This document shows, in pieces, positions 18,771 to 64,000 of a stretch of 64,000 nt of DNA. Numbering within the stretch: the stretch's first letter is position 1; the number at the start of each line of letters is the position of its first letter. The position numbers and the translations under genes are program-made. This DNA comes from Okeania sp. SIO1I7. Its GTDB lineage: Bacteria > Cyanobacteriota > Cyanobacteriia > Cyanobacteriales > Microcoleaceae. The stretch is taken from positions 62,001 to 126,000 of the forward strand of contig JAAHGF010000018.1 in assembly GCA_010672585.1 (NCBI GenBank), in the 5' to 3' direction. The notes under the pieces were generated by a model, which searched no databases, was not told the DNA's origin, and worked only from the letters and a program-made list of their open reading frames with translations.

Positions 18771-18903
18771 TAATCATCCATATATCCGTGGCTAAATCCT
18801 TGTCTAGCAACAACTGCATTAGAAATTATGAAGTCCGTTCATAGGGACACAGCCAAATTAATAAGTAGAGCGAGTCTAAAAAATTAGGATAATTTATTTT
18901 TTA

Positions 18904-20091: not shown

Positions 20092-20165
20092 TGCTAGTTC
20101 CGAAAAGCCTAATATTGTCAAGGGTAGCAAAAATTTAGCAAAATCATACTACGTTTGGGATCAAG

Positions 20166-46334: not shown

Positions 46335-49300
46335 TCAAAGCCTAAAGATAAGCAAGTACGCACAGGGAACAAGGTAAAGAGCAATAAGTGTCGAACCACC
46401 AACACCACCAGCGATCGCTATGGCTAAAGGAGGCCAAAACTCACCACCTTGTACCAACAACGGAACAAACCCAATCATTGTGGTTAAAGTTGTGGCAACT
46501 ACATGACGAGTGGAACCCATAACGACTTGGCGAATAGCTAGACGGTTACCTGTAGATGCTTGGGGGTCTTCGAGGATGGCAGCCAAAACTACTACTGAAT
46601 CATTAATGGCAATTCCCACTAAACCAAATGTACCGATGAGACTCATAAAACCAAAGGGGTAGCCAAATAACCATAAACTGAAAAATCCTAAACCAATAGC
46701 AGAAATAGCGACTATTCCAATAATGGCAGTTGCTCGGAAGGAATTTAACGATAGTACTAAAATTGAGGATGCTAACAGAAATATAACTGGTACGGTTGAG
46801 AAAAGACCTGCTTGAGCATCACCTTGCTTTTCTGACTCTCCAGCAATTTCAGACCAGTAACCAGATGGTAACTCAAAGCTTGAATCATTTAACAGTTGCT
46901 GCCATTCTGTCATGACTTCGGAAGGTAAAACCCCAGAAGCAATAAAACCTTGAATCGAATTTACTCGTCTGCCATTACGTCTTCTAATAACTGAAAATTC
47001 TGGCTGTAATTCTACTTCTGCTAAAGCTAAAACAGGTATTGTGTTAGTTGAACTGAAACTATTTCGATTTAAATTGGAGACAGTGGGTTGTAAGTCTAAG
47101 GATGTAATTTTGCTAAAATCTCCCCTTTGAGCATTTGACACTCGCACCCGCACTGGTAACTCTTCAGTATCTTCAAGAATTGACCCTCCTAAATTCCCCT
47201 CTAGTAAAGTTTCTAACTGTTGCGAAATATTAGCGCGGTCTAATCCAGCTAAACGAACTTCTTGTTCTTTTACTTGTAGTTGCAGTTGGGGTCGAATTTC
47301 GCTTAAAGTGTCGCGGGTGTGAGTTACTTTAGGGATTTTAACTAACAGACTTCTTGCTTGTTCTCCTAATTGTTGTAAACGCTTTAAATTAGGACCATAA
47401 ATTCTCATTTCTACTGGTGCGTCAAAAGGAGGTCCCTGTTCCAATTGTCGAATCAAAACTTGAGCTTCAGGAAATGCGGTATCAACTTCAGCTTGGAGTG
47501 CATTAACAAATTCTGGGTTAGCAATCGAATTTAACTGTAAAAATCCTTCAGCATAATTTGCGTATCGTTGTTTTCCAGACGTTAAGTTGTAGAAATATCG
47601 AGGAGAACTACGTCCTAAAAACCATTGTAATTCCTGGATTTCTGGATGATTTAACATTAGATTTCTGACTGCTTGTGCCGTATTTTTTGTTTTTTCAATT
47701 GAAGTTAAAGCTGGTAATTCTAATTCTATTTTTAGTTGGTCTCTCTCTACCGGAGGAAAGAACTGTTGTGGGAGAGAACTGACTTGAACTAAACCAATAA
47801 TTGGTAAAATTATGCCTAATAATATTCCTAACCAGGGAGTGCGAAATATACTGCGTAAACTCCGTTTATAAACTCGAGTTAAATAGGAATTTGTAAACCC
47901 TTTTTCCCACCATTTTTGTTGAGGATATTGCCCAAGACTATAATAAGAATTCTGGTATAATTTTCCTGCCAAAGCGGAACCTATTGTTAGAGATAATAAT
48001 AATGAAGAAATAACAGCTAAAATTACACTAATACCTAAAGCACCAACAAATTCTCCAGTCGGACCAGGAAGTAATACAACTGGCACAAATGCCAGAGCCG
48101 TAGTTAAAGTTGATGCCGTTAATGGCATAAATAAATGATGACTTGCTTGAGTAATAGCAGCTTCTGGTTTTAATCCTGAAACTATACCTTTAGTAACTTC
48201 ATCAACAACAATAATTGCTGTATCAATCAATAATCCTAACGCTACGATTAATCCAGTTATTGACATTTGATGTAGAGGAACATCTAGCAATCCCATCATT
48301 CCTAACACCATACAAGTAGATAAAGGAAGTGCTAAACCAACAACAATAGCAGATTTGAAACCCATTAAAAATACAGTAATTCCAAAAACCAGTATCCCAC
48401 TCATTAATAGGTTCAAAATCAAACTTTTTAAACGGATTTCAAGATAATTACTTTGATTAAAAATAATCTCAAGCTTCAGACCTTTACCAAGCTCTTGACG
48501 AAACTTTTCTATCGCAGATTCCGCCGTTTTTGCCCATAGGTCTATTTGATAATCTGATTCCACAAATATAGCTAAAGCAGAAGCAGGATGACCATTAATT
48601 AATGCTAATTCATTTGGTGGTTGAGCAATTGTTTTTCTAACTTTAGCAATGTCACCAAGTCTAGTAAATTGCCCTTGATTACTAAAGCTAATTGGAATAC
48701 TCCGAATCCGTTCCAGGGAATCTAGATCTGAATTAACTTCCAAGAGTAAATCATTATTTCGACCACGAAATTGACCTGCTGAAACCTTAGCATCACTCTG
48801 TTGAATTTGTGCTGATAATTCTTGAGGAGTTAAACCGATACTAGCCAACTGAACAGCATCAATTTCTACAGCAATTTCTTCCTGAGGATTGCCAAAACTT
48901 TCAACTTTTTCTGTTCCAGGCAATGCTAATAATTCATCTTTCAGCAATTCAGATAAACGAGTAAGAATTGCATAATTAGGCTTAGTATCTTGTTCCCAAA
49001 TTAAAGCAGTAATCATCGCATAAGCTTTAACTTCAAGTTTCTCTAATCTTGGTTTACTTGTACCAGCAGGTAATTGACTTGCAGCTTGATTTAACCGTTC
49101 TCTAATTCTTAACCAAATTATATCAGCGTCTGTTTCTTCAACTGAATCTAAGAGTTCAATATTAATAATAGAACTTCCTGCTCTAGAACTCGAATCATAG
49201 CTCTTTATTTCTTCTATTTCAGATAATTCTACTTCTATTTTTTCTGTGACTAACGCTTCAATTCGTTCAGCATCAGCACCTGGCAAAAAAGTTTTCACAA

Positions 49301-49430
49301 TCGCAATTCGGGCAACTAATTCAGGGTCTTCTAATCGTGGCAATGTAAAAAATGATGATACTCCCCAAGTGATAATTATTAGTGTTGCCAGTATTAATAA
49401 CCGAAAATTCCGATAAAATAAAGTAGTCAT
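46335..49430 (-). CDS. RND (AcrB/CzcA-type) efflux permease
   Basis: 1031 residues with the RND layout. An N-terminal helix is followed by a periplasmic porter domain with RLEDPELVARIAIVKTFLPG. Helices 2-6 cover about 335-500, and a second porter domain and helices 8-12 follow. In helix 4 the proton-relay motif reads GLLIDTAIIVVDEV, with one Asp instead of the Asp-Asp of AcrB, more like metal or divergent RND pumps. These pumps use proton influx to drive export, normally with a periplasmic adaptor and outer-membrane channel. No adaptor gene adjoins it. It lies at the far end of the minus-strand row that includes the polyketide genes, so exporting that product is possible but unproven. Confidence 0.9.
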   Translation of the reverse strand: MTTLFYRNFRLLILATLIIITWGVSSFFTLPRLEDPELVARIAIVKTFLPGADAERIEALVTEKIEVELSEIEEIKSYDSSSRAGSSIINIELLDSVEETDADIIWLRIRERLNQAASQLPAGTSKPRLEKLEVKAYAMITALIWEQDTKPNYAILTRLSELLKDELLALPGTEKVESFGNPQEEIAVEIDAVQLASIGLTPQELSAQIQQSDAKVSAGQFRGRNNDLLLEVNSDLDSLERIRSIPISFSNQGQFTRLGDIAKVRKTIAQPPNELALINGHPASALAIFVESDYQIDLWAKTAESAIEKFRQELGKGLKLEIIFNQSNYLEIRLKSLILNLLMSGILVFGITVFLMGFKSAIVVGLALPLSTCMVLGMMGLLDVPLHQMSITGLIVALGLLIDTAIIVVDEVTKGIVSGLKPEAAITQASHHLFMPLTASTLTTALAFVPVVLLPGPTGEFVGALGISVILAVISSLLLSLTIGSALAGKLYQNSYYSLGQYPQQKWWEKGFTNSYLTRVYKRSLRSIFRTPWLGILLGIILPIIGLVQVSSLPQQFFPPVERDQLKIELELPALTSIEKTKNTAQAVRNLMLNHPEIQELQWFLGRSSPRYFYNLTSGKQRYANYAEGFLQLNSIANPEFVNALQAEVDTAFPEAQVLIRQLEQGPPFDAPVEMRIYGPNLKRLQQLGEQARSLLVKIPKVTHTRDTLSEIRPQLQLQVKEQEVRLAGLDRANISQQLETLLEGNLGGSILEDTEELPVRVRVSNAQRGDFSKITSLDLQPTVSNLNRNSFSSTNTIPVLALAEVELQPEFSVIRRRNGRRVNSIQGFIASGVLPSEVMTEWQQLLNDSSFELPSGYWSEIAGESEKQGDAQAGLFSTVPVIFLLASSILVLSLNSFRATAIIGIVAISAIGLGFFSLWLFGYPFGFMSLIGTFGLVGIAINDSVVVLAAILEDPQASTGNRLAIRQVVMGSTRHVVATTLTTMIGFVPLLVQGGEFWPPLAIAIAGGVGGSTLIALYLVPCAYLLIFRL

Positions 49431-49829: not shown

Positions 49830-50030
49830 ACTCCCCTACTCCCCAAACTCCCCCACTCCCCTAACGTATCCGTGTATCCGTGCCATAATCCCTGTGAGCC
49901 ACTCCCCCACTCCCCCACTCCCCTAACGTATCCGTGTATCCGTGCCATAATCCCTGTGAGCCACTCCCCTACTCCCCCACTCCCCCACTCCCCTACTCCC
50001 CTACTCCCCTACTCCCCTACTCCCTACCTG
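49830..50030. repeat. CCCCTACTC tandem array with a 62-bp duplicated unit
   Basis: CTAACGTATCCGTGTATCCG begins at 49861 and again at 49923, giving two copies of a 62-bp unit that also holds CCATAATCCCTGTGAGCC. CCCCTACTC and CCCCCACTC repeats surround them and run into the end of the TauE/SafE gene. Confidence 0.9.
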
Positions 50031-51026
50031 CTTCATATAAATTGTGCCCCGATACATCCAGTAATTTAAACAGGAAAATAGAATCAAAGAAATAAAGCTA
50101 GAATATAAAACTAAAGGTCGTAAAGGAATCAGAAAAATAGAGGTAATCATTTCTATAATAATCAAGAAAATAAGTATGTTGGCAATAACTTCCCTCTGCA
50201 ACAGACTACAAAACATTGCTCCTAAAGGAGCTCCAACAACGACAATAGGAATAGCAGCTAACCAGTAACTTTGTACAGTCTCAGTAAAATCGTTAAAGAC
50301 AAAAATCTGTAGAATAAATCCGGCGATCGCATTAATAGCCATCAGAATAACTGAAGTAGGGGTAGCAACTTTTTCGCTTATCCGCCATAGTAGAACCATC
50401 ACAGAAAAGACAACAATATCAATCCCATTGCCCACTAAACCACTCATTATGCCACCGAAAAATCCAGCCAGGAATAATATTCCTTGTTCTTGAAACTGCC
50501 AGGAAGGGATGAATAAATGGCATTGCCTCATATTTTGATTTAAGGTAAATAAGGTAATGGCAAAGCTAGTTAACATAATAGTGAAAGACATCTTGAGAAC
50601 ATCTGGGGGTAATACAGGTGCTAAATAACCTAATCCGATAAAAATGCCGAATAAACCCCCCAAACTCCCCCAACGGATAACTCGCCACTCCACTCGGATA
50701 CCCGTTAAACAAATGGCTAAAGAGGCCGCGCTCATGCCAACACTTTGAATAGCTAGGGAAAATACTTTAGCTTCATGGGGAGAGATGTGTAAAAGCTTAG
50801 TGAATACAGGAAAAGCAACAGCACCCCCACCGATACTGGTTCCCCCAGCAATCATCGAGCCAAATAGCATCGTCAAGGCAATTTGCCAATTACTAATAAG
50901 ATGGGAAAAAGCTTCTTGATAGCCAAGAATGATTAACCAGGCCATCCAAGTACCAGTAGCGATCGCCAAAACAATTACACGTTTGGACATGGGAAGAGGT
51001 GGGATAACTTTCATATTACTTTTCAC
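50001..51026 (-). CDS. TauE/SafE family membrane permease
   Basis: 341 residues with about eight membrane segments in two halves. The family signature is at FGSMIAGGTSIGGGAVAFPV and again at FLAGFFGGIMSGLVGNGIDI. TauE/SafE proteins export sulfite, sulfoacetate and related organic anions. The last residues (KQVGSRGVGE) are encoded by the CCCCTACTC tandem array, so the original C-terminus has been replaced or extended by repeat sequence. It lies 270 bases downstream of the thioesterase on the same strand. Substrate unknown; a link with the polyketide cassette rests only on position. Confidence 0.85.
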   Translation of the reverse strand: MKSNMKVIPPLPMSKRVIVLAIATGTWMAWLIILGYQEAFSHLISNWQIALTMLFGSMIAGGTSIGGGAVAFPVFTKLLHISPHEAKVFSLAIQSVGMSAASLAICLTGIRVEWRVIRWGSLGGLFGIFIGLGYLAPVLPPDVLKMSFTIMLTSFAITLFTLNQNMRQCHLFIPSWQFQEQGILFLAGFFGGIMSGLVGNGIDIVVFSVMVLLWRISEKVATPTSVILMAINAIAGFILQIFVFNDFTETVQSYWLAAIPIVVVGAPLGAMFCSLLQREVIANILIFLIIIEMITSIFLIPLRPLVLYSSFISLILFSCLNYWMYRGTIYMKQVGSRGVGE

Positions 51027-51299: not shown

Positions 51300-51719
51300 T
51301 TAACTATATAGTTCTAATGCTTCCTTAATAGCAGTAGGAATAGGAGTTGGTACAGTTTTTTCTCCCTCTCGTCTCATGCTAGCTGTCTGCTGTTCCCCTT
51401 TAGCAACCATTTCTTCACCTTTGTCGGTAATTCGCCAGTATTCAAACAGCATAGTGATTCTATTTTGTGTGACTGATTTTAAGCGCATCCGAATTGCGAC
51501 TTGATCGAAAGCAAAAAGTTCCGAGTAGTATTCGCAGGAAACGCTGACAGTAGCCAGGGCCAGACCTTCTGATAGTTCAGCCAACACTTCAGGAGCATGA
51601 TCCCGCAAGAACATTTCACGACAACGACCTTGCCAACGAACATAGTTAGCGTAGTAAACATTGCCAACGAGGTTAGTTTCTTCAAAGCTGACTATGTGCT
51701 GATATTCATAAGTTTTCAT
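51300..51719 (-). CDS. Enediyne-type hotdog thioesterase (CalE7/SgcE10-like)
   Basis: 139 residues. The sequence EYQHIVSFEETNLVGNVYY, then ANYVRWQGRCREMFLRDHAP, is the hallmark of the enediyne PKS-associated thioesterases (TEBC, CalE7, DynE7, SgcE10). It differs from ordinary acyl-CoA hotdog enzymes. Known members release the polyene chain from the iterative synthase by hydrolysis, giving a beta-keto acid that often loses CO2 to a heptaene. The later CEYYSELFAFDQVAIRMRL completes the single hotdog domain. It lies about 2.7 kb from the PKS end, on the same strand, with two plus-strand genes and a protease gene between. Confidence 0.9.
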   Translation of the reverse strand: MKTYEYQHIVSFEETNLVGNVYYANYVRWQGRCREMFLRDHAPEVLAELSEGLALATVSVSCEYYSELFAFDQVAIRMRLKSVTQNRITMLFEYWRITDKGEEMVAKGEQQTASMRREGEKTVPTPIPTAIKEALELYS

Positions 51720-51908
51720 GGTTTTTCAAACTTTTCTGTCTTGATAAGATTAGTTGATCATGACCAAAGTCACACTTGTTATCATATAATCAATTAAGTT
51801 GGAGCGGGGGTCAAATCCGCTACTTCCCCTCCTGGGAGGGGTTAGGGGGTGGGTTAACTTCTGACTTCTGACTTCTGACTTCTGACTTCGTTAAATGAGA
51901 GGGTTTTA

Positions 51909-52304
51909 TTGATGACTCAGGATACATCAAATATAATTCGTTTTTCAAGAGATTGGTGGTTATTATATCAGCAAGCATGGAATGAGCAATCAGAATTTAA
52001 ACATAAGTTAAAAAAATTGGGTAAGGTGATTTTTTGTTTAACTGATGGCATAGAGATTTCTGTTTGTTTAAATTGGGATGAACAAGGAGATATTAGTGAG
52101 GTAAATGTAATAGAAACTATTGATGAAAGTTTACCTATTTTTTCAGCACCAGAGGAAAATTGGGAGAAATTTCTTAATAAAGAAATTGGAGCAGCAAAGG
52201 CAGTTATGACAGGAGTTATTGATTATCAAGGCTCATTTTCAATTATTATGAAATATGGGAGACATTTTGATTATTTAGCAGATGTAGCTCAAAAAATTAC
52301 CTAA
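51909..52304 (+). CDS. SCP2-like (sterol-carrier fold) small protein
   Basis: 131 residues. The closing part AAKAVMTGVIDYQGSFSIIM then DYLADVAQKI resembles the lipid-binding SCP2 fold (family pattern of a Gly-turn, then hydrophobic strand, then helix). The N-terminal FSRDWWLLYQQAWNEQSEFK and VCLNWDEQGDIS fit that fold's first half. This is resemblance, not a firm match. Such proteins hold acyl or isoprenoid chains, so its place between the thioesterase and the PKS, although on the opposite strand, is suggestive. Heptamer TTCTGAC repeats lie just upstream. Confidence 0.5.
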   Translation: MMTQDTSNIIRFSRDWWLLYQQAWNEQSEFKHKLKKLGKVIFCLTDGIEISVCLNWDEQGDISEVNVIETIDESLPIFSAPEENWEKFLNKEIGAAKAVMTGVIDYQGSFSIIMKYGRHFDYLADVAQKIT

Positions 52305-52692
52305 TTTATAATGTAGCAGTTATTCGTCTAATTTCCACTTTTTCCAGTAATCAGGTTTTCGCTTTCCATCTGCCTATGGCAATATTCCAGATAAATGCTT
52401 CAAATTCTGAAATATAAAGAAAACAGTGAAATCAGATCGATCATTTTGGGAAAATCGTAAACAGGCGGTCTCCCTGCGCGAGTGCGGCTGCATAGGCGAA
52501 CAAATTCAACAGTCTCATCTTTGATGAATTATCCTTTTTTGATATTGATCGTTGTTGTTGATATAATCAGGATGGTACTTATAATCATCAGGACTTACGC
52601 AACAGCACTAATTATAGTGGCTATATCTTGAGTAATGACCTACCTATACACTGCATATAGTAGTACTGCGTAAGTCCTGATCATAAAAAGTT
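52305..52692. other. Spacer with MITE B
   Basis: No gene. 52587-52681 is a MITE; the rest (TTTTCCAGTAATCAGG, GGCGGTCTCCCTGCGCGAGTGC) is unique sequence. Confidence 0.5.
52587..52681. mobile_element. MITE family B, second copy
   Basis: ATCAGGACTTACGCA and TGCGTAAGTCCTGAT are perfect 15-base inverted repeats at the two ends of a 95-bp element. The other copy is nested in MITE A at 4767. It ends 11 bases before the next start codon and could supply promoter or leader sequence to it. Confidence 0.85.
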
Positions 52693-52908
52693 ATGTTAAA
52701 AACAGAGGCAGAAATACAAGAATTTTATCAAAAAATTGTTAATAATTTGTCTGCCCATGAGCAACTTTATTTAGCTTCTCTTATTTTAAATAATTTAGCT
52801 GAAAAAAAAGTTATGGTAATAGATGAAAGTGATACTTGGACAGAAGAATATCAAAACGATTTAGCTGCTTTTTCTTTGCAGTATAGTTTTGAAGGTCACA
52901 TTTGCTGA
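52693..52908 (+). CDS. Small hypothetical protein, antitoxin-like
   Basis: 71 residues: a helical N-terminus (EIQEFYQKIVNNLSAHEQLY, LASLILNNLAEKK), then DESDTWTEEYQNDLAAFSLQ. The ESDTW...DLAAFSLQ ending resembles small cyanobacterial proteins encoded beside toxin genes, though no toxin frame follows here. It may be a solitary antitoxin or an unrelated small protein. A MITE B end lies just upstream. Confidence 0.5.
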   Translation: MLKTEAEIQEFYQKIVNNLSAHEQLYLASLILNNLAEKKVMVIDESDTWTEEYQNDLAAFSLQYSFEGHIC

Positions 52909-53045
52909 TTGTTAGAAACTTTTTTGTGATTAGTTTCTTGTCTTGGCGTTCCCATGAACTAGAAGTGAGTGAGATTCATCGCCTCTATTTTCTAGACCTA
53001 CAAATATAGCAATAGGGTGGGCGTTGCTCACCCTACGTTAAGTTA

Positions 53046-54284
53046 TTAACGTTTCTTGCGAAGTCCCATTAATCCGAGTCCACCAATGGCGAAGAGTCCT
53101 ATGATTGAACTGGGTTCTGGGACTGGAATTGAATACAAAGCTGCCGCACCAAATGCATTGTCATCATCAATAATTTGACTAAGTTGATTCATAGTAAACG
53201 GAGCATCACTTGCCATAATTCCGTCATTAGAATGCAATAATCCAATGACATGACCCCATTCATGAAGAGCAACTGAGAAGAAATCAGCTTCATAGATATC
53301 AAAGGTACTGGCAGCGTCTAAGACAAACCCTCCCCATGAATCTTCGACCATGAGATTAAGATCCATAAATGCTTGTTCAGTACCTTCAAATTGCATACCA
53401 TCAGATACACGAAGATAATCAAAATCCACATCATCATGAAGGATATCTGGCACTTTGTCGAATGACCATGTTGTATCAAATAGGGCCGTTGTCTCCTGAA
53501 AAACTTTCATTGGGTCATTAAGAGGAAGTCCATCTACACTAATGTGCCAACCTGGATTGCTTACCCAAAATTGACTGGTTGGTGTTGCCTCAAACATCAA
53601 AGTAAGTGGATCGACACCAGGCAGCATTGTACTTTGTGCATCAGATACAATCCATTCACCTACAGCATCTCTGATTTCTTCAAATCCTTCCATAAAATCT
53701 ACCACCAACTCATGAGCTCCAGACATAACTTTTTCAAAAATCACGCTAGTTTTGAGGGGAGTACCATCTGGTGCAGTACGTTTCTGTTCACCTTCTTGTT
53801 TAGCACGAGTATTCCATGTTAACATTGCCTCAGTAACAAGTTCTTGAGCTAAATCTGGGACATCACTACCAAATAAATACCGAGGTTTAAAAGAAGGATC
53901 TATATAACCATGACCAAAACGATCCCATAGATCGTTATATTCATCCAAGTTAGTATCTGAAAATCGGTAAAATCGATCGTCCCATACTGAATCAGCAACC
54001 CACTCTCCACCATCATGCTCAAACCCAAGGTCACTAATAACGGAAATGTTAACATCTTCTATGTGCAGGTGATTAATGTTATCGGGTATTCCAGGCTGTT
54101 GCTGCCAGCTTATTTTCGGAGGAGTATCGGGATGAGGATTCAAATGTTGGTTTGGTATTCCATAAGACTTCGTGGGCAAAAATAACATTGTTGAGCTTGC
54201 CAAAGCATAACTACAACCACGGATAATTATTCCAAGTTTTGGGATTGTTAATTTAAACATTAGGTTCGGATTTAATTGTTGCAT
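53046..54284 (-). CDS. Secreted matrixin-type zinc protease with PEP-CTERM anchor
   Basis: 412 residues. A signal peptide lies within residues 1-42 (IIIRGCSYALASSTMLFLP). The zinc site HEWGHVIGLLHS near residue 342 has the H-E-x-x-H-x-x-x-x-x-H form of matrixins/metzincins. The C-terminus PVPEPSSIIGLFAIGGLGLM then RKKR is a PEP-CTERM sorting signal, handled by an exosortase on the way to the cell surface. Middle repeats of Trp/Asp-rich sequence may bind calcium. A strong AGGAGG site lies just before the ATG. It starts 102 bases after the PKS stop on the same strand, close enough for co-transcription. A protease is not a usual enediyne-cassette member. Confidence 0.88.
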   Translation of the reverse strand: MQQLNPNLMFKLTIPKLGIIIRGCSYALASSTMLFLPTKSYGIPNQHLNPHPDTPPKISWQQQPGIPDNINHLHIEDVNISVISDLGFEHDGGEWVADSVWDDRFYRFSDTNLDEYNDLWDRFGHGYIDPSFKPRYLFGSDVPDLAQELVTEAMLTWNTRAKQEGEQKRTAPDGTPLKTSVIFEKVMSGAHELVVDFMEGFEEIRDAVGEWIVSDAQSTMLPGVDPLTLMFEATPTSQFWVSNPGWHISVDGLPLNDPMKVFQETTALFDTTWSFDKVPDILHDDVDFDYLRVSDGMQFEGTEQAFMDLNLMVEDSWGGFVLDAASTFDIYEADFFSVALHEWGHVIGLLHSNDGIMASDAPFTMNQLSQIIDDDNAFGAAALYSIPVPEPSSIIGLFAIGGLGLMGLRKKR

Positions 54285-54386
54285 TTGTTCCTCCTGTGAA
54301 CGATTATTAAAAATACTTTTAGGCTTGTTTTGTTTTCTTGCTGTCGATCTCTTTTCTCTTTGAGTTAAAGAAAATGTGATTTCAAC

Positions 54387-57300
54387 TTAATTAATTGATC
54401 GCACTTCTGCCAAGATCCGATCGCTCTCCATCACCTCTTCCTTACCGGTCAACACAGCAAACACCAACGGTTGCTCAACCTCCCGCACCGAGAGAACAAA
54501 AGTAGCGATCGCCTTTTCCCCAGACTCCAGCCAAACTATTTCATTTGGAGATAGAGAAGAATTGTTCATTAACAACAAAGGAGCATCCGCCACCATTCCC
54601 GCTTTCTTGAGACACTCACTGGTACACCAAATCTGAGTTGCCGTTACATCCAATTCTTGCCCTGTCTCCTGAGCAACAACCTTGGCTAAATCCAACCGCC
54701 TCACACCCAATAAATCGCCCCAAACTAGCTCATTCCTGGCTACCACAGGTTCTACATCACAACCTTCAGAACCCGCTACAACTAGGGTTAAATCTCCCGC
54801 ATGGGAAACAGATACCGCCTGTCCGTTGCCCAATTCCGGTTTCCCATCAGGGCGACGATATAAATTCTGAGTTCTGAATTCTGTTTGCGGAGCATTCCGG
54901 AGGAAATTCTGTTTGCGGAGCATTCCGTAGGAAATTCTCAACAGGTTACGATCGCTCCTTACCCTTTTTTCAACCGTTGCATCTCGATCCACAACAATAG
55001 TTAAATCTGCATCAGGGATAACTTCCTGAATGCGACGTTCTAGATAAGTAGGGAGTAATACAGCATTCCAAGGTTCTTGAGTATCTCGATGCTGAATCAC
55101 TTGTAATTCCAAACTTTTCCACTGTTCTAAAACTCTTCCTGTTTCATCAAAGATGGTCAAATCATAAATATAGCGATCGCCAATATGCTGACGTTCTTTT
55201 GCTGATACAAACTGATTTCCTGCTGAATTCACAGAATGAATTATCATGCTTTCTACTCCAATGGGTAAAATTGTGGCATGAGGAACACAAGCTTGTAAAG
55301 CATGAATTGCAGCATCCCTCGCCCCCGCATCTCCTAAAATTAAATCTTGGGGGAGATAGCGACTAAACCAGGGCGTTGTAGCATCGGTTTTGATCTCGGC
55401 AAGACATTCGGTTGCTTTCAGATGACGATAACCTTGTATCCTTTGAAAACGACCTTGATGGAAAAGTAATTCACCATATAAATCTTTCTTCGGATCGAGA
55501 CCATTGTGGCTTTCAGATTTAATATTTTGATTGACAACAGTTGATTTTTGACTGTTAACTGTTGACTGAATTAGGGTTGCTCGGAAATGATCGACGCTAA
55601 ATGCTGTTTGCTCACTCCGCAGTACCACTTCCACTTTGCCCGACTCTTGGACTAAAGCAGCAAGACGTATTTTTAGTGTTTCACCTTCAGGAACGACAAC
55701 TGGTCGATTAAACTGAATGTTTTCAAATATGAATGATTTTTTATCCCCCTTGGCAAGAGGAACTTTGGCTACATTCTCCCCCCTTACTAAGGGGGGTTGG
55801 GGGGGATAGATATCTGACTCGGAAGGTTGATTTCCCCTAGAGTCTGGTTTCAAACTAATATATCCCCCTAAATCCCCCTTTGCAAGGGGGACTTTGAGTA
55901 TATTCTCCCCACTTATTAAAGGATGTAATGCCATTGCTACCTGCGCCATAGCTTCCAGTCCCATCACCCCAGGAAAAATTCGTTCTCCTTGGTAAACGTG
56001 ATCATCTAGGTAAGGGTCACTGGTTGTTGAGAGTTCTGCATCTACTACTAACTCTACTCCAGGATAATAAACTCTAGTTTGTTCCAGGAACCGACTGAAA
56101 GGAAGTTCTGGCTGTTCAATTTTGAGGGTGGGAGGTTCTCCAAAGCGACCTGTTACAACAACAGAAGTGGTTGGTAACGATTGAGCTATCAGACGACGCA
56201 GAATAGTAATTCCTCGCTCTGGGGGAATTGGTGTAATCCCTTGTTGCATCAAAGTATCGATTCGACCTAAACGTTCTCCCATTCCTGCTCCAGACCAAAC
56301 TGACCAATCTAAATTCAGAAAGCGACAGTGGGGGTTTTGGGCTTGAAATTGTTCTGTCATACGAGCGAGCCATTCATTAGCGAGAGCGTAATCTGCTTCT
56401 CCTGGTAAACCCGTCCGGGCAATAATTGAACCAAAAGTAACTGATAGTCTCAGATACTCGGAATTAATTGCTGCGAATAGGTTTTGTAGACCATGAACTT
56501 TAGGTGCTAAAGTATCTAAGCAGTCTTGGCGATCGAGATTTTTAATTAGTTTCGGTTTATTGACTCCCGCACCGTGGATAATAGCGGTGATGTTACCCCA
56601 ATCTGTTTCGATTTGGTTTACTGCACTTTTCACTGCTTCACTATCGGTAACATCGACTGATAAGTATTTCACCTGAATACCAGCATTAGTCATCCGGTTG
56701 AGATTAGTTGCTAATTCGGCATCAGTTTCGGGTTGAGAACGTCCCAACAATGCTAGACGAACTCCCGTTTCTTGAGCGATAGATAAGGCACATTCGGCAG
56801 CAATTCCCTTACCACCCCCTGTAACTAATAAGATATCTTCTGAATTTAGGGTTAATTCGTTGTTTTCCTCTGAAGGAATAGCTAACAAACGGAGAACAGG
56901 CGATCGCCTTTTTCCTTCAACATCATAATAGGATTCAGAATAACTAGAGGTTGAAGAGACTTCATTAATAATCCACTCAACTGCTTGAGGACTATCTATG
57001 GGAACATCAATTACACAAGTTCTAATCTTGGGATTTTCTAGATAGAATGTCCGAGCAAAGGATGCTCCACCACTACCATGTTGTATTAAGACAAAACTAT
57101 GTTGCTTTGATTTTTCCTCTTCTGCTTTAGCTAATAAATTTTTAGCTCCTGTTAATAAAAGCTCAATCTGTTCTTCAATATTTAATGTTGGAGGAAGACC
57201 AATGATAACACCATTACCTTCAAGCTGACTAAATGCTTCTGATAACGGAAGATTTAAAGAATAGTTAGCAGGAGCAATAACTTGCCAATTGGAATTTTGA

Positions 57301-60300
57301 CTTTTGAGTTCTAGAGGCAAATCAGAATCAATGTCTTGAGTTTTAACTTTTGACTTCGTATTTTGACTTTTTTGACTTTTGAGTTCTAGAGGCAAATCAG
57401 AATCAATGTCTTGAGTTTTAACTTTTGACTTTTGAGTTTTAACTTTTGACTTCGTATTTTGACTTTTGAGTTCTAGAGGCAAATCAGAATCAATGTCTTG
57501 AGTTTTAACTTTTGACTTTTGAGTTTTAACTTTTGACTTCGTATTTTGACTTTTGACTTCTAAAGGTGACTCTACTAACTCAACAGTAAATGTCCGTATC
57601 CAGGAATCTACTCCTGAAGGCAGTTGTTCAACGGAGTGAGTTTCACCAATACTAGAAAGTTCTTCTAATGCTTGGGCAATGTCAGCAACTGTGGCATCTG
57701 CATAATCTGTTGGTGCTATGGGAGGAGATAAATTTAAACTGCGGGCAGCTTCAACTACTAATTGACTGACGGTTATGGAATTGAGATGCAAATCGCTCAA
57801 TAGTCGATGGTTATCTAAAATACTGGCAACAGGAAGTTCTGTTCGTTGAGCAACCAGTTGGCGAACGCAGTCAATTTTGGATGAGCTATTAATAACAGTT
57901 AATTTTTGAGGACTATCTATTTCTGCTCGACTGTTATACTCCAAACGCTCATAACTTGAGGTTTTAATATTTCCCTGTTCCCTGTTCCCTGTTGCCTGTT
58001 GCCTATCCCCTGTTGACTGAGAAACAGGAGCTAACTCACAGGGATTAACGAAAAATTGAGGATGCCAATCTAAATTAAATGGTCGGGTAAAACGTCCCGC
58101 AAATAAAGCTTGATGGTTAATGGGAACTCCCAAAGTAAAAGCGGCAGCGGCAGCTTTTAATAAACCTTTAAGAGAATTACCACTCGCATCTAAGGATATT
58201 GCAGGAACATCTACCAAGTCACTGACTAACCTACTTAAAATTTGTCCCGGACCGACTTCAATAAATAAATCTAAATCTTGAGCTGCTGTAGTAACAGCTT
58301 CCATAAACTGCACAGGTAAGGTTACTTGTTGCACCAATAGCGATCGTAAATCGGCTGTTTCTTCTAAGTAAGTACCTGTAATGGTTGAGACAACTTTACC
58401 TTGTAAGGGATGAAAATCTTCCTGTGCAAGATAATCTGCGAAAGGTTGTGCTACTGCAGCGACTAGAGGCGAGTGGAAAGCATGAGACACTGGTAAAGTA
58501 AAGGTTTTCAATCCTTTAGCTTGTGCTTTTGCTACTATGTTACTGATTCCTATTGGTTCCCCTGAGACAATTGTTTGATAGGGTGAATTCAATCCAGCTA
58601 TGGCAACTACTCGACCATTCAGCAGTGCTTTAACTTCTTGTTCCCCTGCACCAATACTTGCCATTTTCCCTGTGGAGTTGCCCAGTTCTGCCATAACTTT
58701 ACCCCGCATCTTGGCAATGCGAACCAAGGCAGTTTCATCGAAAATTCCAGCCCAATGTAAAGCACTTAATTCTCCTAAACTGTGACCGACAGCAACATCA
58801 GCGACGATACCCAGTTGGTTTAATACTCGTAAACCTACCGTAGATGAGGTAACAATTGCTGGTTGAGCGATCGCTGTTGACTTAGTATCTTCTACTGTTG
58901 GTAAATTAGCCTTAGCATATAATTCTTGTAAGAACGGAAAACGACGAGACCACACCCCAGCATTAAGATATACAGGAGAAGCTTGTCCAGGGAAAAGAAA
59001 ACCAATTCGTGGATTTTTTCCATCTATCCCTAAAAAGACACCTGATGAATTGTGAATTTTGAATTGTGAATTGTGAATTTTATTGAGGAGGGTTTCTAAG
59101 TGAGTGGTCAACTCTTGGGGATGACTAGCAACAATAGCAGCGCGTACAGGTAAACTAATATCTAAGTTGCTTGCTAATTCCGCAGCTAAATCTCCTACTT
59201 CAGCTCTTGATAATCTGGGAGCTATTTCTAAAAGATGCTTAACTTTTTGCTCTAACTCTTCCGTATTTTTCGCTGCCAGTAAAATGAGTTCAGCATCTTG
59301 AGGTGTCGTTATAAGTTGGCGTTCTTTAGGTGTTAGCTTGTGACGACGAATGCTAGAGTTTCCTTCTAGGACAATATGAGTATTAATACCACCAAAACCC
59401 ATTGCACTTACCCCAGCCCGCAGAGGTACATCTTCTGACCAAGCTTTACCCTCTTTCAGGACTTCCAGGGGCGGGTTTTCAACCTCCAGTGCGGGATGAG
59501 GTTGGTCGCAACCAGTAGTCGGCGGAACTATTTGATTGTGGAGTGCCATGGTAGCTTTGATAATTCCTGCTATTCCTGCCGCAGCTTTTGTATGACCGAT
59601 ATTTGCCTTAATAGAACTAATTGCAGCCGGATACAATGATGCCTCTGCTTCCAAACGGGCACGAGATAATACTTGCAGTTCCGTAGCATCACCAACGCTA
59701 GTACCAGTACCGTGTCCCTCAAAATACCCTAATGTGTCAATGCCAAACCCTGCTCGACGATAGGCACGTTTAATTGCCAATAACTGACCTTCAACTTCGG
59801 GCCTGGTAATGCCACCATTGCCATCAGAAGAGATACCCCAACCACGAATGACACTGTAAATACGTCGCTGCTGTACTATTGCATCTTCGTAGCGCATTAA
59901 TACCACAAACCCACAGCCTTCCCCTGGAATAAAACCAGCAGAATGAGCATCATAGACCCGCATTTCTTGGGTAGCTAATGCTCCTACTTTGGCAAATCCC
60001 ACTAACTCGAATGGGTCTAAACTTAAATCTACCCCACCAGCGATCGCCACATCTAAATCTTCTGTCATTAAAGCAGAACAGGCATTAGCAATAGCTAGTA
60101 AGGAAGAACTACAAGCCCCATCAATGCTATAACCTCCCCCTTTGAGGTCAAAATGATTACAGATTCTGCCTGCTATAGTATTAGACAAATTCCCGGCTAA
60201 AGATTCTTCACCAATCTCTGGGAATGGTTCTTTATATTTGCTTTCTAAATCTTTGAAGAAAGCAAGACGTTCTTCTAAGGAGACTCCCTGCTCTATTAGT

Positions 60301-60746
60301 TGCGTTTCCACAACTCTGCGCACATAAGGCCAACGCAAACGTAAAGAATTAGCTCTTGAAAATTCTCCAGTAAGGGTATTTCCCAGTAAAACTCCTGTAG
60401 TTTCGCGGGGTAAATTTTCTCCTTCAGCAAATCCAGCATCAGCTAAAGCTTGGGCAGCAATATCTAATGCCAGCCAGTGAACTAAATCTGCCGAACGAAA
60501 GGTGCTACCGACTACACGAAAATCAACGCGGTCAAATTCGTAACCCTCAATCAGAGCAGCTTCTGCTCCATAGGTGCAATCAGGAGTACTTTTATCGGCA
60601 GAAAAATAATCATCTAAAGATAATCTTTCGGTTGGAATGCGGCGAAAAGCACGACGTTGTGCCAAAACATTCTCCCAGAGTTCGATAGGCGAACGCGCAT
60701 CTGGATACCGACAAGCCATTCCGACAATAGCAATAGCAGGTTTCAT
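54387..60746 (-). CDS. Iterative type I polyketide synthase, enediyne (PKSE) type
   Basis: 2119 residues. The KS has Cys212 in DGACSSSLLA, His345 in EGHGTGTS and His385 in NIGHTKAAAG. The AT has Ser656 in VGHSLGE. The ACP has Ser990 in LHLNSITVSQLV, matching the enediyne synthase LHLNS form. The KR is near 1310 (VTGGGKGIAAECALSIAQ). The DH has His1583 in DPYLDDHVYQGERIFPG. A C-terminal phosphopantetheinyl transferase is near 1975 (AVSVSHAGDLTLVVAGSEGC then DVEPV). KS-AT-ACP-KR-DH-PPT is the enediyne PKS order; such enzymes self-activate and make a conjugated polyene. In-frame repeats enlarge several linkers and the PPT domain. The main alternative is a heterocyst-glycolipid or PUFA-type synthase, less likely given the ACP and thioesterase. 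Confidence 0.9.
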   Translation of the reverse strand: MKPAIAIVGMACRYPDARSPIELWENVLAQRRAFRRIPTERLSLDDYFSADKSTPDCTYGAEAALIEGYEFDRVDFRVVGSTFRSADLVHWLALDIAAQALADAGFAEGENLPRETTGVLLGNTLTGEFSRANSLRLRWPYVRRVVETQLIEQGVSLEERLAFFKDLESKYKEPFPEIGEESLAGNLSNTIAGRICNHFDLKGGGYSIDGACSSSLLAIANACSALMTEDLDVAIAGGVDLSLDPFELVGFAKVGALATQEMRVYDAHSAGFIPGEGCGFVVLMRYEDAIVQQRRIYSVIRGWGISSDGNGGITRPEVEGQLLAIKRAYRRAGFGIDTLGYFEGHGTGTSVGDATELQVLSRARLEAEASLYPAAISSIKANIGHTKAAAGIAGIIKATMALHNQIVPPTTGCDQPHPALEVENPPLEVLKEGKAWSEDVPLRAGVSAMGFGGINTHIVLEGNSSIRRHKLTPKERQLITTPQDAELILLAAKNTEELEQKVKHLLEIAPRLSRAEVGDLAAELASNLDISLPVRAAIVASHPQELTTHLETLLNKIHNSQFKIHNSSGVFLGIDGKNPRIGFLFPGQASPVYLNAGVWSRRFPFLQELYAKANLPTVEDTKSTAIAQPAIVTSSTVGLRVLNQLGIVADVAVGHSLGELSALHWAGIFDETALVRIAKMRGKVMAELGNSTGKMASIGAGEQEVKALLNGRVVAIAGLNSPYQTIVSGEPIGISNIVAKAQAKGLKTFTLPVSHAFHSPLVAAVAQPFADYLAQEDFHPLQGKVVSTITGTYLEETADLRSLLVQQVTLPVQFMEAVTTAAQDLDLFIEVGPGQILSRLVSDLVDVPAISLDASGNSLKGLLKAAAAAFTLGVPINHQALFAGRFTRPFNLDWHPQFFVNPCELAPVSQSTGDRQQATGNREQGNIKTSSYERLEYNSRAEIDSPQKLTVINSSSKIDCVRQLVAQRTELPVASILDNHRLLSDLHLNSITVSQLVVEAARSLNLSPPIAPTDYADATVADIAQALEELSSIGETHSVEQLPSGVDSWIRTFTVELVESPLEVKSQNTKSKVKTQKSKVKTQDIDSDLPLELKSQNTKSKVKTQKSKVKTQDIDSDLPLELKSQKSQNTKSKVKTQDIDSDLPLELKSQNSNWQVIAPANYSLNLPLSEAFSQLEGNGVIIGLPPTLNIEEQIELLLTGAKNLLAKAEEEKSKQHSFVLIQHGSGGASFARTFYLENPKIRTCVIDVPIDSPQAVEWIINEVSSTSSYSESYYDVEGKRRSPVLRLLAIPSEENNELTLNSEDILLVTGGGKGIAAECALSIAQETGVRLALLGRSQPETDAELATNLNRMTNAGIQVKYLSVDVTDSEAVKSAVNQIETDWGNITAIIHGAGVNKPKLIKNLDRQDCLDTLAPKVHGLQNLFAAINSEYLRLSVTFGSIIARTGLPGEADYALANEWLARMTEQFQAQNPHCRFLNLDWSVWSGAGMGERLGRIDTLMQQGITPIPPERGITILRRLIAQSLPTTSVVVTGRFGEPPTLKIEQPELPFSRFLEQTRVYYPGVELVVDAELSTTSDPYLDDHVYQGERIFPGVMGLEAMAQVAMALHPLISGENILKVPLAKGDLGGYISLKPDSRGNQPSESDIYPPQPPLVRGENVAKVPLAKGDKKSFIFENIQFNRPVVVPEGETLKIRLAALVQESGKVEVVLRSEQTAFSVDHFRATLIQSTVNSQKSTVVNQNIKSESHNGLDPKKDLYGELLFHQGRFQRIQGYRHLKATECLAEIKTDATTPWFSRYLPQDLILGDAGARDAAIHALQACVPHATILPIGVESMIIHSVNSAGNQFVSAKERQHIGDRYIYDLTIFDETGRVLEQWKSLELQVIQHRDTQEPWNAVLLPTYLERRIQEVIPDADLTIVVDRDATVEKRVRSDRNLLRISYGMLRKQNFLRNAPQTEFRTQNLYRRPDGKPELGNGQAVSVSHAGDLTLVVAGSEGCDVEPVVARNELVWGDLLGVRRLDLAKVVAQETGQELDVTATQIWCTSECLKKAGMVADAPLLLMNNSSLSPNEIVWLESGEKAIATFVLSVREVEQPLVFAVLTGKEEVMESDRILAEVRSIN
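57290..57565 (-). repeat. TTTTGAC heptamer arrays within the PKS gene
   Basis: The ACP-KR linker contains three near copies of LELKSQNTKSKVKTQ with QDIDSDLP, encoded by ACTTTTGACTTTTGAG-type heptamers interleaved with GAGGCAAATCAGAATCAATG. The same heptamers form intergenic arrays at 37610-37740 and 51850-51890. Confidence 0.9.
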
Positions 60747-61262
60747 AATTCAATCTCTCTTTTTATAGGTTTTTATAGGGAGTAGGGAATAGGGAGTAGG
60801 GAGTAGGGAACAGGGAATACCATTTCTCAAAAACTTTTCTACATTTTTGGGTAGACGTTGCATACAACGTCCGAGAACCCACCCCTAACCCCTCCCAGGA
60901 GGAGAAGTAAACATCACAGAGATAGGTTTTTATAGGGAATAGGGAATAGGGAATAGGGAGTAGGGAGTAGGGAGTAGGGAATACCATTTCTCAAAAACTT
61001 TTCTACATTTTTGGGTAGGGACGTTGCATGCAACGTCCGAGAACCCACCCCTAACCCCTCCCAGGAGGGGAAGTAAACATCACAGAGATTCGTAGCAAAA
61101 ATTTATCAAACTGGTATTATTTATTTAGGACTTATATCATCTCCGGATAATTAGTTATAAAAAACCTTCTCCCTTTAAACCTTTCTTTTCCTTCTGCCTT
61201 CTGCCTTCTGCCTTCTGCCTTCCTTCCTCCAATATGCGGAGCATTCCGTCAGGAAATGCTTT
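60747..61262. repeat. PKS upstream region: 157/168-bp direct duplication
   Basis: Copies at 60767-60923 and 60924-61091 both read AGGTTTTTATAGGGA, AGGGAGTAGGGA-type heptamers, TACCATTTCTCAAAAACTTT, ACGTTGCA-hairpin-TGCAACGTCC, CACCCCTAACCCCTCCCAGG and AACATCACAGAGAT. After them lie CTTCTGCCTTCTGCC repeats and a TGCGGAGCATTCCG element (61235-61259). The PKS promoter must sit in or beyond this duplicated DNA. Confidence 0.85.
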
Positions 61263-62195
61263 TTAACTTTGGCTAGATTTTTGATAACTCACTGCGATTG
61301 GTGCTGGTACAAGAATCTTAGTTATGGACATCTGATTAATCCAAGTCTGAGTATAAAAATTCAACCCTCTCAAAGTACAAACAATTGTCAGAGCAAAGAA
61401 CAGTCCAAATACAATATGACAGACCATTAACAAGCCATAAACAGCAGCGACTGATGCTCCAAAAAACACTTGGTCTAAAGGTTTTCTCGGGGTTGTACCT
61501 GGATCGGTGACCATATAAAAGGTGAAAAGTACAAAAGCAACTCCTGTCATTGGCAGTAAGGCAGGTATAAGAGGCGTTTCAAAAACATAACTCCTCAATG
61601 CTGCTTGGAGGAAAAAACCTCCCATCCATCCTGCAATCAATGGCAGTTTTCTGGTAAAGCGAGCGTTGAGAAAAGTTCCGGTACAAACAATCAGTACAGG
61701 TAAAATCCAATCTCCCCAACCGCTTAAATTTTCTGTAAATTGATAGGGGGGAGCAATACCGACCCAAGGAAACAAGAGCAAGGTAATCGTAATACCAAAA
61801 TTAGAAGGGTTGAAGAAATGTCGTTTTCCTTCAGGAAGGCGAAAAATTGCTTTTGAACCAATAGCGACAGCGGTTGCAAAGGCAATAGGGAATAATCGCT
61901 CATTAGCATACAGCAGCATTGCCACAGCTAAAGCAGTAATATGAGCAGAAAGCAAAAAGTCGATAAAATTGCTGAAACTGCCGATAAAACGGGGTTGCTG
62001 TCGATTAATCCTAGCATCAATAGTTTCTAGTAGGAGTTCGACACTGTAAGCGGTTACTAGAGCAACTACTGGTTGCGCCCAAGATTGTTCAAATCCTAAT
62101 ACAGTATGTCCTAAGATATTGAGGAAGGTAATTGCTATGGCAAAGCGGCGTAACCCTGCTATGCGTTTGGGTTGGTGGGAGGTATCTTTACTCAT
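61263..62195 (-). CDS. UnbU-like (enediyne E5) integral membrane protein
   Basis: 310 residues with about eight to nine membrane helices. The stretch HFFNPSNFGITITLLLFPWV then IAPPYQFTENLSGWGDWILP resembles the UnbU/E5 proteins of the conserved enediyne PKS cassette and, more distantly, RnfD/NqrB-like membrane proteins (MVTDPGTTPRKPLDQVFFG matches that fold). Its role in those clusters is not established; a redox or export function has been suggested by homology. It lies directly upstream of the PKS on the same strand, 517 bases away. The best-supported call is a cassette partner. A general RnfD-like protein is the alternative. Confidence 0.7.
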   Translation of the reverse strand: MSKDTSHQPKRIAGLRRFAIAITFLNILGHTVLGFEQSWAQPVVALVTAYSVELLLETIDARINRQQPRFIGSFSNFIDFLLSAHITALAVAMLLYANERLFPIAFATAVAIGSKAIFRLPEGKRHFFNPSNFGITITLLLFPWVGIAPPYQFTENLSGWGDWILPVLIVCTGTFLNARFTRKLPLIAGWMGGFFLQAALRSYVFETPLIPALLPMTGVAFVLFTFYMVTDPGTTPRKPLDQVFFGASVAAVYGLLMVCHIVFGLFFALTIVCTLRGLNFYTQTWINQMSITKILVPAPIAVSYQKSSQS

Positions 62196-62370: not shown

Positions 62371-63174
62371 TTACTTAAAGGATTGTTTTTTCTTCAAACC
62401 CCATGTTCCTGCGAGTGCGAACAAGGTAAGAGCTAAAGTCGCCGATGGTTCAGGAACAGGAGTTGGTTCTACAATATGAATGGTTCCGTCCCCTGCGTCA
62501 TGGATAACAGGTGCTGTTAGGAAGAAATTGCTAGATTCTGGTCCGACAAAATTATCAGAACCAGGAGTCATACTCCACGGTTCATTACTCGCAATAAAAG
62601 TTCCTTTCTGAAAAGGTTGACATTCATAGGAAGCACTTGGACAACCTGCGATTAAATTTTTAATAAAATCTGGACCTGTAGGGTTCAGGGTTCCTGCATC
62701 AGCAATAATCGCTATGCCATTGATATCAAAAAATGAATCCCAAGTCCCGCCATCTCCAGATTCATCATGACGAATAGTCATCTCTCCACCAGATTGCATA
62801 TTAGGATCAAGTCCGACGAAAACATCCTTTCCTCCAACTGCTTCTACGCTGACTAAAGAGAGGTCTTCGATAATTATCGGAGTATCACCACTAGGTTCGC
62901 TAACTGGATCGGTTCGCCTTATGATGGTATCGGTAATACCTAAAGTGCTTGAATCAATTGGCAATCCTTTAAAAGTTACAAAACCGATGTCGATCGGGTC
63001 ATCGAAGAAAAACGTAGCACTACCAGTAGGAGTAAAGACATAATCTAAACCTGGATTGACAGTTGCTGCATTAGATGACTGCGTAACTGCCAAAAGCGCC
63101 ATCGCACTAGCACTTAATCCCACAGCTCCAATTAGACTACGACTTAACAATCTTGATAATTTAAAAATATTCAC
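62371..63174 (-). CDS. PEP-CTERM surface protein of unknown function
   Basis: 267 residues. The signal peptide is LIGAVGLSASAMALLAVTQ, ending SNAA. The mature part is acidic and beta-rich (GLDYVFTPTGSATFFFDDPI, IIADAGTLNPTG), with a Cys pair in GCPSASYECQPF. The C-terminus PTPVPEPSATLALTLFALAG then LKKKQSFK is a PEP-CTERM signal for exosortase sorting to the outer surface. No enzyme motif is seen. It shares its C-terminal style with the next gene and the protease at 53046, so all three likely go through the same export route. Confidence 0.85.
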   Translation of the reverse strand: MNIFKLSRLLSRSLIGAVGLSASAMALLAVTQSSNAATVNPGLDYVFTPTGSATFFFDDPIDIGFVTFKGLPIDSSTLGITDTIIRRTDPVSEPSGDTPIIIEDLSLVSVEAVGGKDVFVGLDPNMQSGGEMTIRHDESGDGGTWDSFFDINGIAIIADAGTLNPTGPDFIKNLIAGCPSASYECQPFQKGTFIASNEPWSMTPGSDNFVGPESSNFFLTAPVIHDAGDGTIHIVEPTPVPEPSATLALTLFALAGTWGLKKKQSFK

Positions 63175-63494: not shown

Positions 63495-64000
63495 TTACTT
63501 AAGAGAATGCTTTTTCTTCAAACGCCATATTCCTGCGAGTCCGAACAAGGCAAGAGATACAGTAGCTGATGGTTCGGGGATAGGTTCAGGAATGTGTTGT
63601 TCACTCAATGTTATTCCTACGCGCGTTTCAAAAGTTCCATCACCATCTTGGTCTTGAAATACTTCTGTGTTACTTATATAACAATACTCGACTGTCACGA
63701 ATGTAAATTCCTTACAGTCTGGATCAGAAGATTCAAATGGTCCGTGTGGCAAACCTACAGGACCCTCCTCTGTCAATCCAGCAAGACCTCGAGCTCCCAT
63801 CATGCGGATAGGACTCTGGTTGCGTATTGGTCCCCCTGGAAGTCCTTGAATTTCAAACAGAACATCAAAGAAGCTATCAGCGAAAACTGATTCATCTTCA
63901 GGAGTGTTTGGATCATCTACTCGTTGAGTAATTTGTCCTTCCGAGTACAAGGGTCCATCATTAATACCATTAGGGTTACCATCGCCTGCTATAATCTGGA
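63495..64000 (-). CDS. PEP-CTERM surface protein, 5' end outside window
   Basis: The frame is open to the window edge (upstream codons read QIIAGDGNPNGINDGPLYSE), so the TTG at 63950 is not the true start. The visible part is acidic (RVDDPNTPEDESVFADSF) with a Cys pair (DPDCKEFTFVTVEYCYI). It ends PIPEPSATVSLALFGLAG then LKKKHSLK, a PEP-CTERM signal much like that of the neighbour at 62371. They are probably related by duplication. Function unknown. Confidence 0.8.
   Translation of the reverse strand, partial: QIIAGDGNPNGINDGPLYSEGQITQRVDDPNTPEDESVFADSFFDVLFEIQGLPGGPIRNQSPIRMMGARGLAGLTEEGPVGLPHGPFESSDPDCKEFTFVTVEYCYISNTEVFQDQDGDGTFETRVGITLSEQHIPEPIPEPSATVSLALFGLAGIWRLKKKHSLK

Follow-up and report, generated by a model that had tools for sequence, protein, structure and literature searches.

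A complete enediyne-type polyketide synthase cassette with embedded families of predicted exported proteins in the cyanobacterium Okeania

The genes of the enediyne polyketide synthase (PKS) cassette have been named E3/E4/E5/E/E10, with E2 as a marker of 9-membered and R3 of 10-membered enediynes, and apoprotein genes have been described in some actinobacterial 9-membered clusters (PMC5181780, available portions). An enediyne clade of ketosynthase (KS) domains that includes cyanobacteria was published in 2014 and 2023 (PMC4247773, PMC10308959), and the cyanobacterial enediyne-type cassette is a class already known; the available portions of these earlier reports mention neither PEP-CTERM nor DynF-like proteins, the term 'PEP-CTERM' occurring 0 times in PMC4247773. 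Here we describe a locus of Okeania sp. SIO1I7 (genome 9.48 Mb) that lies partly within a window of 64,000 nucleotides (positions 62001-126000 of contig C20) and partly just beyond its end. By sequence, all five genes of an enediyne-type PKS cassette (UnbL-UnbV-UnbU-PksE-E10) are present, and embedded among them are recurrent families of proteins that carry export signals.

In the C-1027 cluster of Streptomyces globisporus (L019), UnbL, UnbV, UnbU and PksE stand in the same order on the producer's plasmid, and the thioesterase, encoded outside the stretch compared, is likewise of the SgcE10/CalE7/DynE7 type; unlike C-1027, in Okeania the UnbV-UnbU and PksE-thioesterase intervals both contain genes for secreted PEP-CTERM proteins. 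To our knowledge, the roles of UnbL, UnbV and UnbU in converting a polyene to the enediyne core are largely open.

The five-gene cassette and its likely product

The five linked genes occupy a single strand (C20 minus strand, 113300-130850), and all are uninterrupted. Three are intact open reading frames (ORFs) in the window, on the minus strand, where the original prediction had placed them: a 139-aa acyl carrier protein (ACP)-polyene thioesterase of the E10 type (51300..51719); the 2119-aa synthase PksE (54387..60746); and UnbU (E5), a membrane protein related to NQR2/RnfD (61263..62195; NQR2_RnfD_RnfE, E 1.7e-6). The cassette looked incomplete in the window because the window ends inside it. 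The earlier description of it as split and rearranged is therefore abandoned: its genes are all present and in colinear order, with others inserted among them, and UnbL and UnbV, which had been reported as not visible, lie on the same strand in the usual order just past base 64000, where a search for them had been recommended. UnbV (C20:127499-129508, minus strand), located by an UnbV-domain search, is about 1.5-1.6 kb beyond the window end, and UnbL/DUF1702 (C20:129786-130850, minus strand; Pfam E 4e-125) is 3.8 kb beyond base 64000.

Identification of the three window genes was borne out by comparisons whose strength greatly exceeds chance. UnbU is 46% identical to its C-1027 counterpart, 69% to that of Richelia (L021) and 95% to those of its closest named relatives by this protein, Okeania sp. 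SIO2C9 and SIO3B5. The thioesterase matches SgcE10 (2e-45), CalE7 (3e-42) and DynE7 (2e-39) in a phmmer search of the PDB, versus 3.8e-7 or weaker for other hotdog thioesterases (YbgC, 1.5e-5), and falls below the cut-offs of the YbgC/FadM models (TIGR02799, 44 of 141 bits; TIGR00051, 43 of 69 bits); it groups with the enediyne E10 enzymes, as proposed, and not with YbgC-type enzymes. PksE has KS, acyltransferase (AT), ketoreductase (KR) and dehydratase (DH; PS-DH) matches above Pfam cut-offs, an ACP (PP-binding) match slightly below (20.4 versus 20.8 bits), and no match to Pfam models of phosphopantetheinyl transferase (PPTase). All 11 motifs sought for the KS, AT, ACP, KR, DH and C-terminal PPTase (PPT) domains are present; the motifs are read in their usual sense, and the PPT assignment depends on them. 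The predicted order KS-AT-ACP-KR-DH-PPT thus stands. The LHLNS motif, by which the ACP had been typed, is present in the window PksE and in those of SIO2C9 and Richelia, but it is no general mark because the C-1027 synthase lacks it. PksE matches the AT-domain chain of DynE8 at E 4e-55, and over longer stretches generic PKS chains outscore that chain.

A maximum-likelihood tree was built from 92 KS domains (67 from cassettes, 7 of the PfaA type drawn from cyanobacterial genomes, and 18 others). A branch with support 99/93 separates the 67 cassette domains, including that of C-1027, from the rest. The window KS, with an end branch of 0.041, belongs to a clade of 13 rows (100/99), all cyanobacterial except one from a metagenome-assembled genome (MAG) labelled Rhizobium (L046, beside Microseira); the PfaA-type domains form a separate group (100/99), and 17 of the 18 others lie elsewhere, the remaining cyanobacterial domain (L185) branching immediately outside the cassette group. 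The tree contains no named heterocyst-glycolipid KS, so the comparison with that class is only implied. A plasmid search for named outgroup KS domains gave 47 of 1282 records at 60-80% identity; among the 60 matches listed, three were in that range and the next best was 38.7%. A polyunsaturated fatty acid (PUFA)-type KS is ruled out by the tree and by a PfaA score (TIGR02813) of 577 bits, under the 1010-bit cut-off. The placement of KS and thioesterase, together with the five linked genes, upholds the proposal of an enediyne-type PKS cassette in a cyanobacterium; neither of the two outcomes named beforehand as overturning it was observed.

A genome-wide scan with UnbU, of whose 530 relatives the best 80 were kept, gave 79 loci. 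The full five-gene order on a single strand is found in 43 of them and its first four genes in a further 14; the remaining 22 have other or cut arrangements. Among 386 cyanobacterial genomes, cassette-type UnbU (E < 1e-160) occurs in two, this one and Richelia sinica; 71 have any match to the UnbU profile at 1e-10, the third best at 5.7e-31, and seven have DUF1702 above cut-off. DUF1702 is found in four of 59 close relatives and UnbL is retained in four of five same-genus genomes (own included in both counts), the same-genus genome G388 having no DUF1702 match.

This retention of UnbL in four of the five genomes would also fit a decaying cassette without any product in this strain. Peptide inserts resembling repeats are found in PksE at residues ~1060-1150, after the ACP, and ~1620-1670, in the DH region, and in another genome of the genus (G387, L028) the cassette is broken, with PksE in two short ORFs and UnbV and UnbU absent from the 15.6-kb contig. 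Decay nevertheless appears quite improbable, given five uninterrupted genes, the full set of PksE motifs and the short KS end branch. In SIO2C9, the insert after the ACP is shorter and different.

The product itself may be a linear polyene or polyyne lipid rather than an enediyne, the five-gene cassette being an ancestral polyene system; we regard this as evenly poised, and it would be compatible with the carrier role considered below for the embedded proteins. Compact five-gene cassettes in several phyla (Sinorhizobium L029, for example) agree with a linear product, as does a Serratia proteamaculans plasmid (L030:8293-12936) where, in the stretch compared, DUF1702, UnbV and UnbU adjoin a TauE permease gene and stand-alone KS and ACP genes but no PksE; the trio may serve another polyketide system there. 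No enediyne tailoring enzyme was recognised by Pfam among the ORFs scanned (20 of 41 in the window and 8 downstream), ORFs farther downstream being read as translations; against a linear product, tailoring genes may sit in other parts of the genome, to which the search for them did not extend. The C-1027 cluster has a P450, an E6-type flavin reductase and two DUF1702 genes, whereas neither of the two enzymes was recognised among the Okeania ORFs scanned and the whole genome has a single DUF1702 match, lacking the second DUF1702 that we take to be the E2 marker of 9-membered enediynes. With no P450 or E6-type gene seen among the ORFs scanned and a single DUF1702, we make no claim to a true enediyne and prefer the more cautious description of the product as a polyene or a polyene-derived compound. 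Divergent DUF1702 genes also occur in four other cyanobacteria (L022-L025; two copies in three of them) with no UnbV or UnbU in the stretch, beside ORFs that, judging by a sequence motif, presumably resemble FAD-dependent oxidoreductases.

Predicted exported protein families embedded in the cassette

Three PEP-CTERM-type genes lie between UnbU and UnbV on the cassette strand. Those in the window encode a 267-aa secreted protein of family B (62371..63174, minus strand), assigned by its cassette homologs, with a PEP-CTERM-like tail below the Pfam cut-off, and the C-terminal part of a secreted protein of family A with a similar tail (63495..64000, minus strand; L003:1496-2356), whose 286-aa gene extends to C20:126355. 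A secreted matrixin-like (M10) protein with a PEP-CTERM tail is encoded between PksE and the thioesterase (53046..54284, minus strand; Peptidase_M10 4e-8, PEP-CTERM 2e-5) and has a distant counterpart in SIO2C9 (L032:17663-19372); a further PEP-CTERM gene lies past UnbL on the same strand (C20:131904-132644). The PEP-CTERM-type genes at 53046-54284, 62371-63174 and 63495-64000 (continuing past the window end) had been missed by the original prediction.

The mature parts of 26 PEP-CTERM-like proteins from cassette loci were compared and fell into two main homologous families, smaller groups and orphans. Family A (alignments A4 and A7), which starts with 'CGPGxxWVNNC', is found on the window contig and in both named Okeania, UBA11370, Richelia and Crocosphaera; family B (alignments A5 and A6) is found in the window, SIO3B5, UBA11372 and Cyanothece UBA12306. 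In 15 cyanobacterial cassette loci (the window and 14 of the 79, L046 counted in), A or B lies in or beside the cassette in eight. Microcystis (L035) has a PEP-CTERM protein outside both families; L034, L036, L040, L046, L080 and L091 have no PEP-CTERM-type gene in the stretch seen, some stretches being short; farther along its contig, L036 (Microseira) does match family B weakly. The mature parts of the members scanned match no Pfam family above cut-off.

Family B extends beyond cyanobacteria. It lies just upstream of UnbL in Paludisphaera soli (L048:6165-6974) and likewise in a Planctomycetota MAG (L052:6168-6953), with PEP-CTERM-like tails on both planctomycete proteins; it also adjoins the cassette in a Pyrinomonadaceae MAG (L050:18030-18896) and, after the thioesterase, in Rhizobium sophoriradicis (L072:18158-18955). 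An Angelobacter MAG (L155) has two tandem copies upstream of UnbL. At E 0.001, 11 of 30 cassette genomes searched whole have family B, in seven of them near the cassette on its contig (two weakly, G446 and G450); random placement would give at least seven with P 2.7e-12 and at least five with P 6e-8, figures biased by the construction of A6 from cassette loci, and only the Angelobacter pair is a fresh strong find. In G423, G426, G430 and G432 the matches fetched are on contigs other than the cassette's, and the uncultured acidobacterium G430 (L053), whose cassette contig is 8.5 kb, has 19 matches on many contigs, some of them fetched. These copies rule out a family bound strictly to the cassette; family B is a wider secreted family, some members of which travel with the cassette. 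Neither A nor B was found in 35 actinobacterial loci at E 1e-4 (best E 0.3 with filters off), and the A6 profile gave 0 matches at E <= 10 in four actinobacterial cassette genomes.

The cassette could be a standard cyanobacterial one into which unrelated surface-protein genes were inserted by chance. PEP-CTERM proteins are common in cyanobacteria, 35 being predicted in Nostoc punctiforme (PMC12188702, available portion); the number of inserted genes varies among Okeania species, and several inserted proteins belong to neither family. Yet all five PEP-CTERM-like ORFs detected by a pattern search in 102 kb of the contig lie within or adjoining the cassette, the same two families turn up again within or adjacent to the cassettes of other genera but hardly at all in the rest of the 386-genome sample (at E 0.001, family A in three genomes, namely this one, Richelia and, weakly, G235 at 1.4e-6; family B in this one), and family B accompanies cassettes in Planctomycetota, Acidobacteriota and Rhizobium. 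In Crocosphaera sp. MO_192.B18, moreover, a PEP-CTERM gene, a cyanoexosortase A gene and its partner stand directly behind PksE (L042:16992-20143; exosortase at 18156-19481, 255 bits versus a cut-off of 150; partner at 19478-20143, 196 versus 100). Insertion by chance is accordingly improbable.

Families A and B are candidate exosortase substrates by their N-terminal signals, PEP motifs, hydrophobic stretches and basic tails, in genomes with an exosortase. Genome-wide, an exosortase was found in 16 of 18 cassette genomes searched: nine of nine with PEP-tailed A/B proteins, and one of three with a tailless family B protein (absent in R. sophoriradicis and Angelobacter). A parallel is the scytonemin locus (ScyD/E/F, cyanoexosortase B), likewise a natural-product locus with PEP-CTERM proteins and a genome exosortase: in N. 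punctiforme, the exosortase CrtB is needed for scytonemin, the operon encodes PEP-CTERM proteins and the late steps are periplasmic (PMC12188702, available portion). The chemistry is unrelated, and the exosortase in the Crocosphaera locus is of type A and not B.

Predicted resemblance to DynF and a proposed site of post-polyketide chemistry

DynF of the dynemicin pathway (PDB 6ubl; DUF6073) has no detectable sequence homology to A or B, but the predicted model of family A ranks DynF first and has the barrel expected of it, so that family A is predicted to have a DynF-like barrel fold. The beta-rich model of family B also ranks DynF first, tied with OmpA; that both do so despite no detectable mutual sequence similarity argues further against chance insertion. 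Signal-like N-termini are present in 10 of 11 A/B members, mostly with PEP-CTERM tails, whereas the DynF ortholog of Streptomyces CB03234, which matches DUF6073 at 9e-107, has no N-terminal hydrophobic segment. In this tiancimycin strain (G451), UnbU matches lie on C6 and C12, that on C12 near the DynF ortholog. An initial candidate for a DynF ortholog, L092:4971-5654, was rejected for want of a PDB match, the real ortholog being L172:5925-6575. According to the available portions of the literature, a DynF ortholog is required early in sungeidine biosynthesis, and the DynF paper describes the role of DynF as not directly confirmed. PMC8725005 was the only open-licence article found on DynF/Sgd15 and enediynes, and the open-licence literature gave no account of a PEP-CTERM or DynF-like component in enediyne-type cassettes, PEP-CTERM and enediyne being merely co-mentioned.

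We consider it somewhat probable that the cassette has built-in exported families working like DynF, with a polyene-derived intermediate or product held outside the inner membrane. The cassette, its order, homologies, hydrophobic N-termini, tails and exosortase gene were read from sequence, and the family A fold comes from prediction. By analogy with known enzymes, a long polyene would be produced in the cytoplasm by PksE and the thioesterase. It would then be acted on, at or beyond the inner membrane, by UnbU within that membrane and by UnbV, whose N-terminal hydrophobic segment, found in the Okeania and the C-1027 protein alike, may serve export. The A/B proteins would be secreted, tethered via their PEP-CTERM tails and released by exosortase, and an unstable, hydrophobic intermediate or product could stay bound to them at the surface or within the periplasm. 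For this holding role the model would be the PEP-CTERM proteins of the scytonemin locus, thought to act in the periplasm or on the surface, and DynF is the barrel protein that binds lipid in dynemicin biosynthesis.

Several observations weigh against this interpretation. The VIA score of the family B model is inseparable from that of OmpA, its Foldseek search gave nothing at 0.001, and the models were built on shallow alignments of 7 and 11 sequences. Sequence profiles link neither A nor B to DynF, nor A to B: DUF6073 (PF19550) is not matched by the A/B members scanned at limits 1 and 5, the A6 profile gives 0 matches in the PDB at E <= 10, and the hhalign comparisons with DynF (A7, E 0.019 with a probability of 2.4%; A6, E 0.24) are not accepted as homology, the lower value coming from a single comparison. 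Several A/B members score under the Pfam PEP-CTERM cut-off, seven of the 15 cyanobacterial cassette loci show no A/B gene over the stretch covered, which in some of them is short, none of the 197 loci scanned has another gene similar to the exosortase in the Crocosphaera locus, and an exosortase is also present in six of six other cassette genomes, which makes its presence alone weak evidence. The PksE inserts and the broken G387 cassette belong here too.

If A and B are DynF-like, they might still act outside the cell on the finished product, as apoproteins or sequestering proteins for self-protection or storage on the sheath, and not as biosynthetic carriers. Export signals and tails, the multiple copies in Okeania (four of A/B in SIO3B5), which fit binding or storage, and the apoproteins of some actinobacterial 9-membered clusters would suit such a role; no immunoglobulin-fold, apoprotein-like chain was among the top rows for either model, an absence that is no proof. 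The early requirement for the DynF ortholog in sungeidine biosynthesis and the cassettes that show no A/B gene make a purely sequestering role unlikely.

Neighbouring genes and significance

A TauE/SafE permease gene (50001..51026, minus strand; TauE 2.2e-26) adjoins the thioesterase gene and is possibly a member of the locus; it also stands beside the thioesterase in Calothrix (L034) and two further Okeania loci (L028 and L134), and one occurs in the Serratia cluster. An RND efflux permease gene (46335-49430) lies downstream of both genes on the same strand. Between PksE and the thioesterase, a divergent gene encodes a 131-aa protein (51909..52304, plus strand) with a weak match to the lipid-transfer family SCP2 (E 0.037, below cut-off) and homologs in the same gap in Okeania (L032) and Microcystis (L035).

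A membrane-like protein of ~190 aa, none of which was seen in the window, is encoded between PksE and the thioesterase or right after the latter in six of the 15 cyanobacterial cassette loci (L037:12089-12679; L035, L036, L038, L040, L046) and has relatives in 14 of 35 actinobacterial loci; the two members scanned match no Pfam family. Another family occurs both in cassette loci of actinobacteria and in Mojavia pulchra, a cyanobacterium (L092:4971-5654; L040:14005-14568; L074, L078, L098), with no Pfam match above cut-off in the two members scanned.

The cassette beside export-signal proteins, one family of which is predicted to be DynF-like, suggests where post-PKS chemistry takes place, with late pathway steps and carriers outside the inner membrane. 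A more far-reaching proposal, which we advance tentatively and rate as slightly short of probable, is that diderms, cyanobacteria and planctomycetes above all, run the post-PKS steps there; that DynF-like barrels sorted by exosortase, from two previously unrecognised sequence families, keep the reactive intermediate or product derived from the polyene in the periplasm or on the sheath; and that duplication has given Okeania a small array of these barrels, whereas in Crocosphaera the cassette has gained the sorting enzyme itself. Where post-PKS chemistry occurs could be tested with the few genes of the locus and their purified proteins, and the locus also offers a handle for finding a cyanobacterial product of this PKS type.

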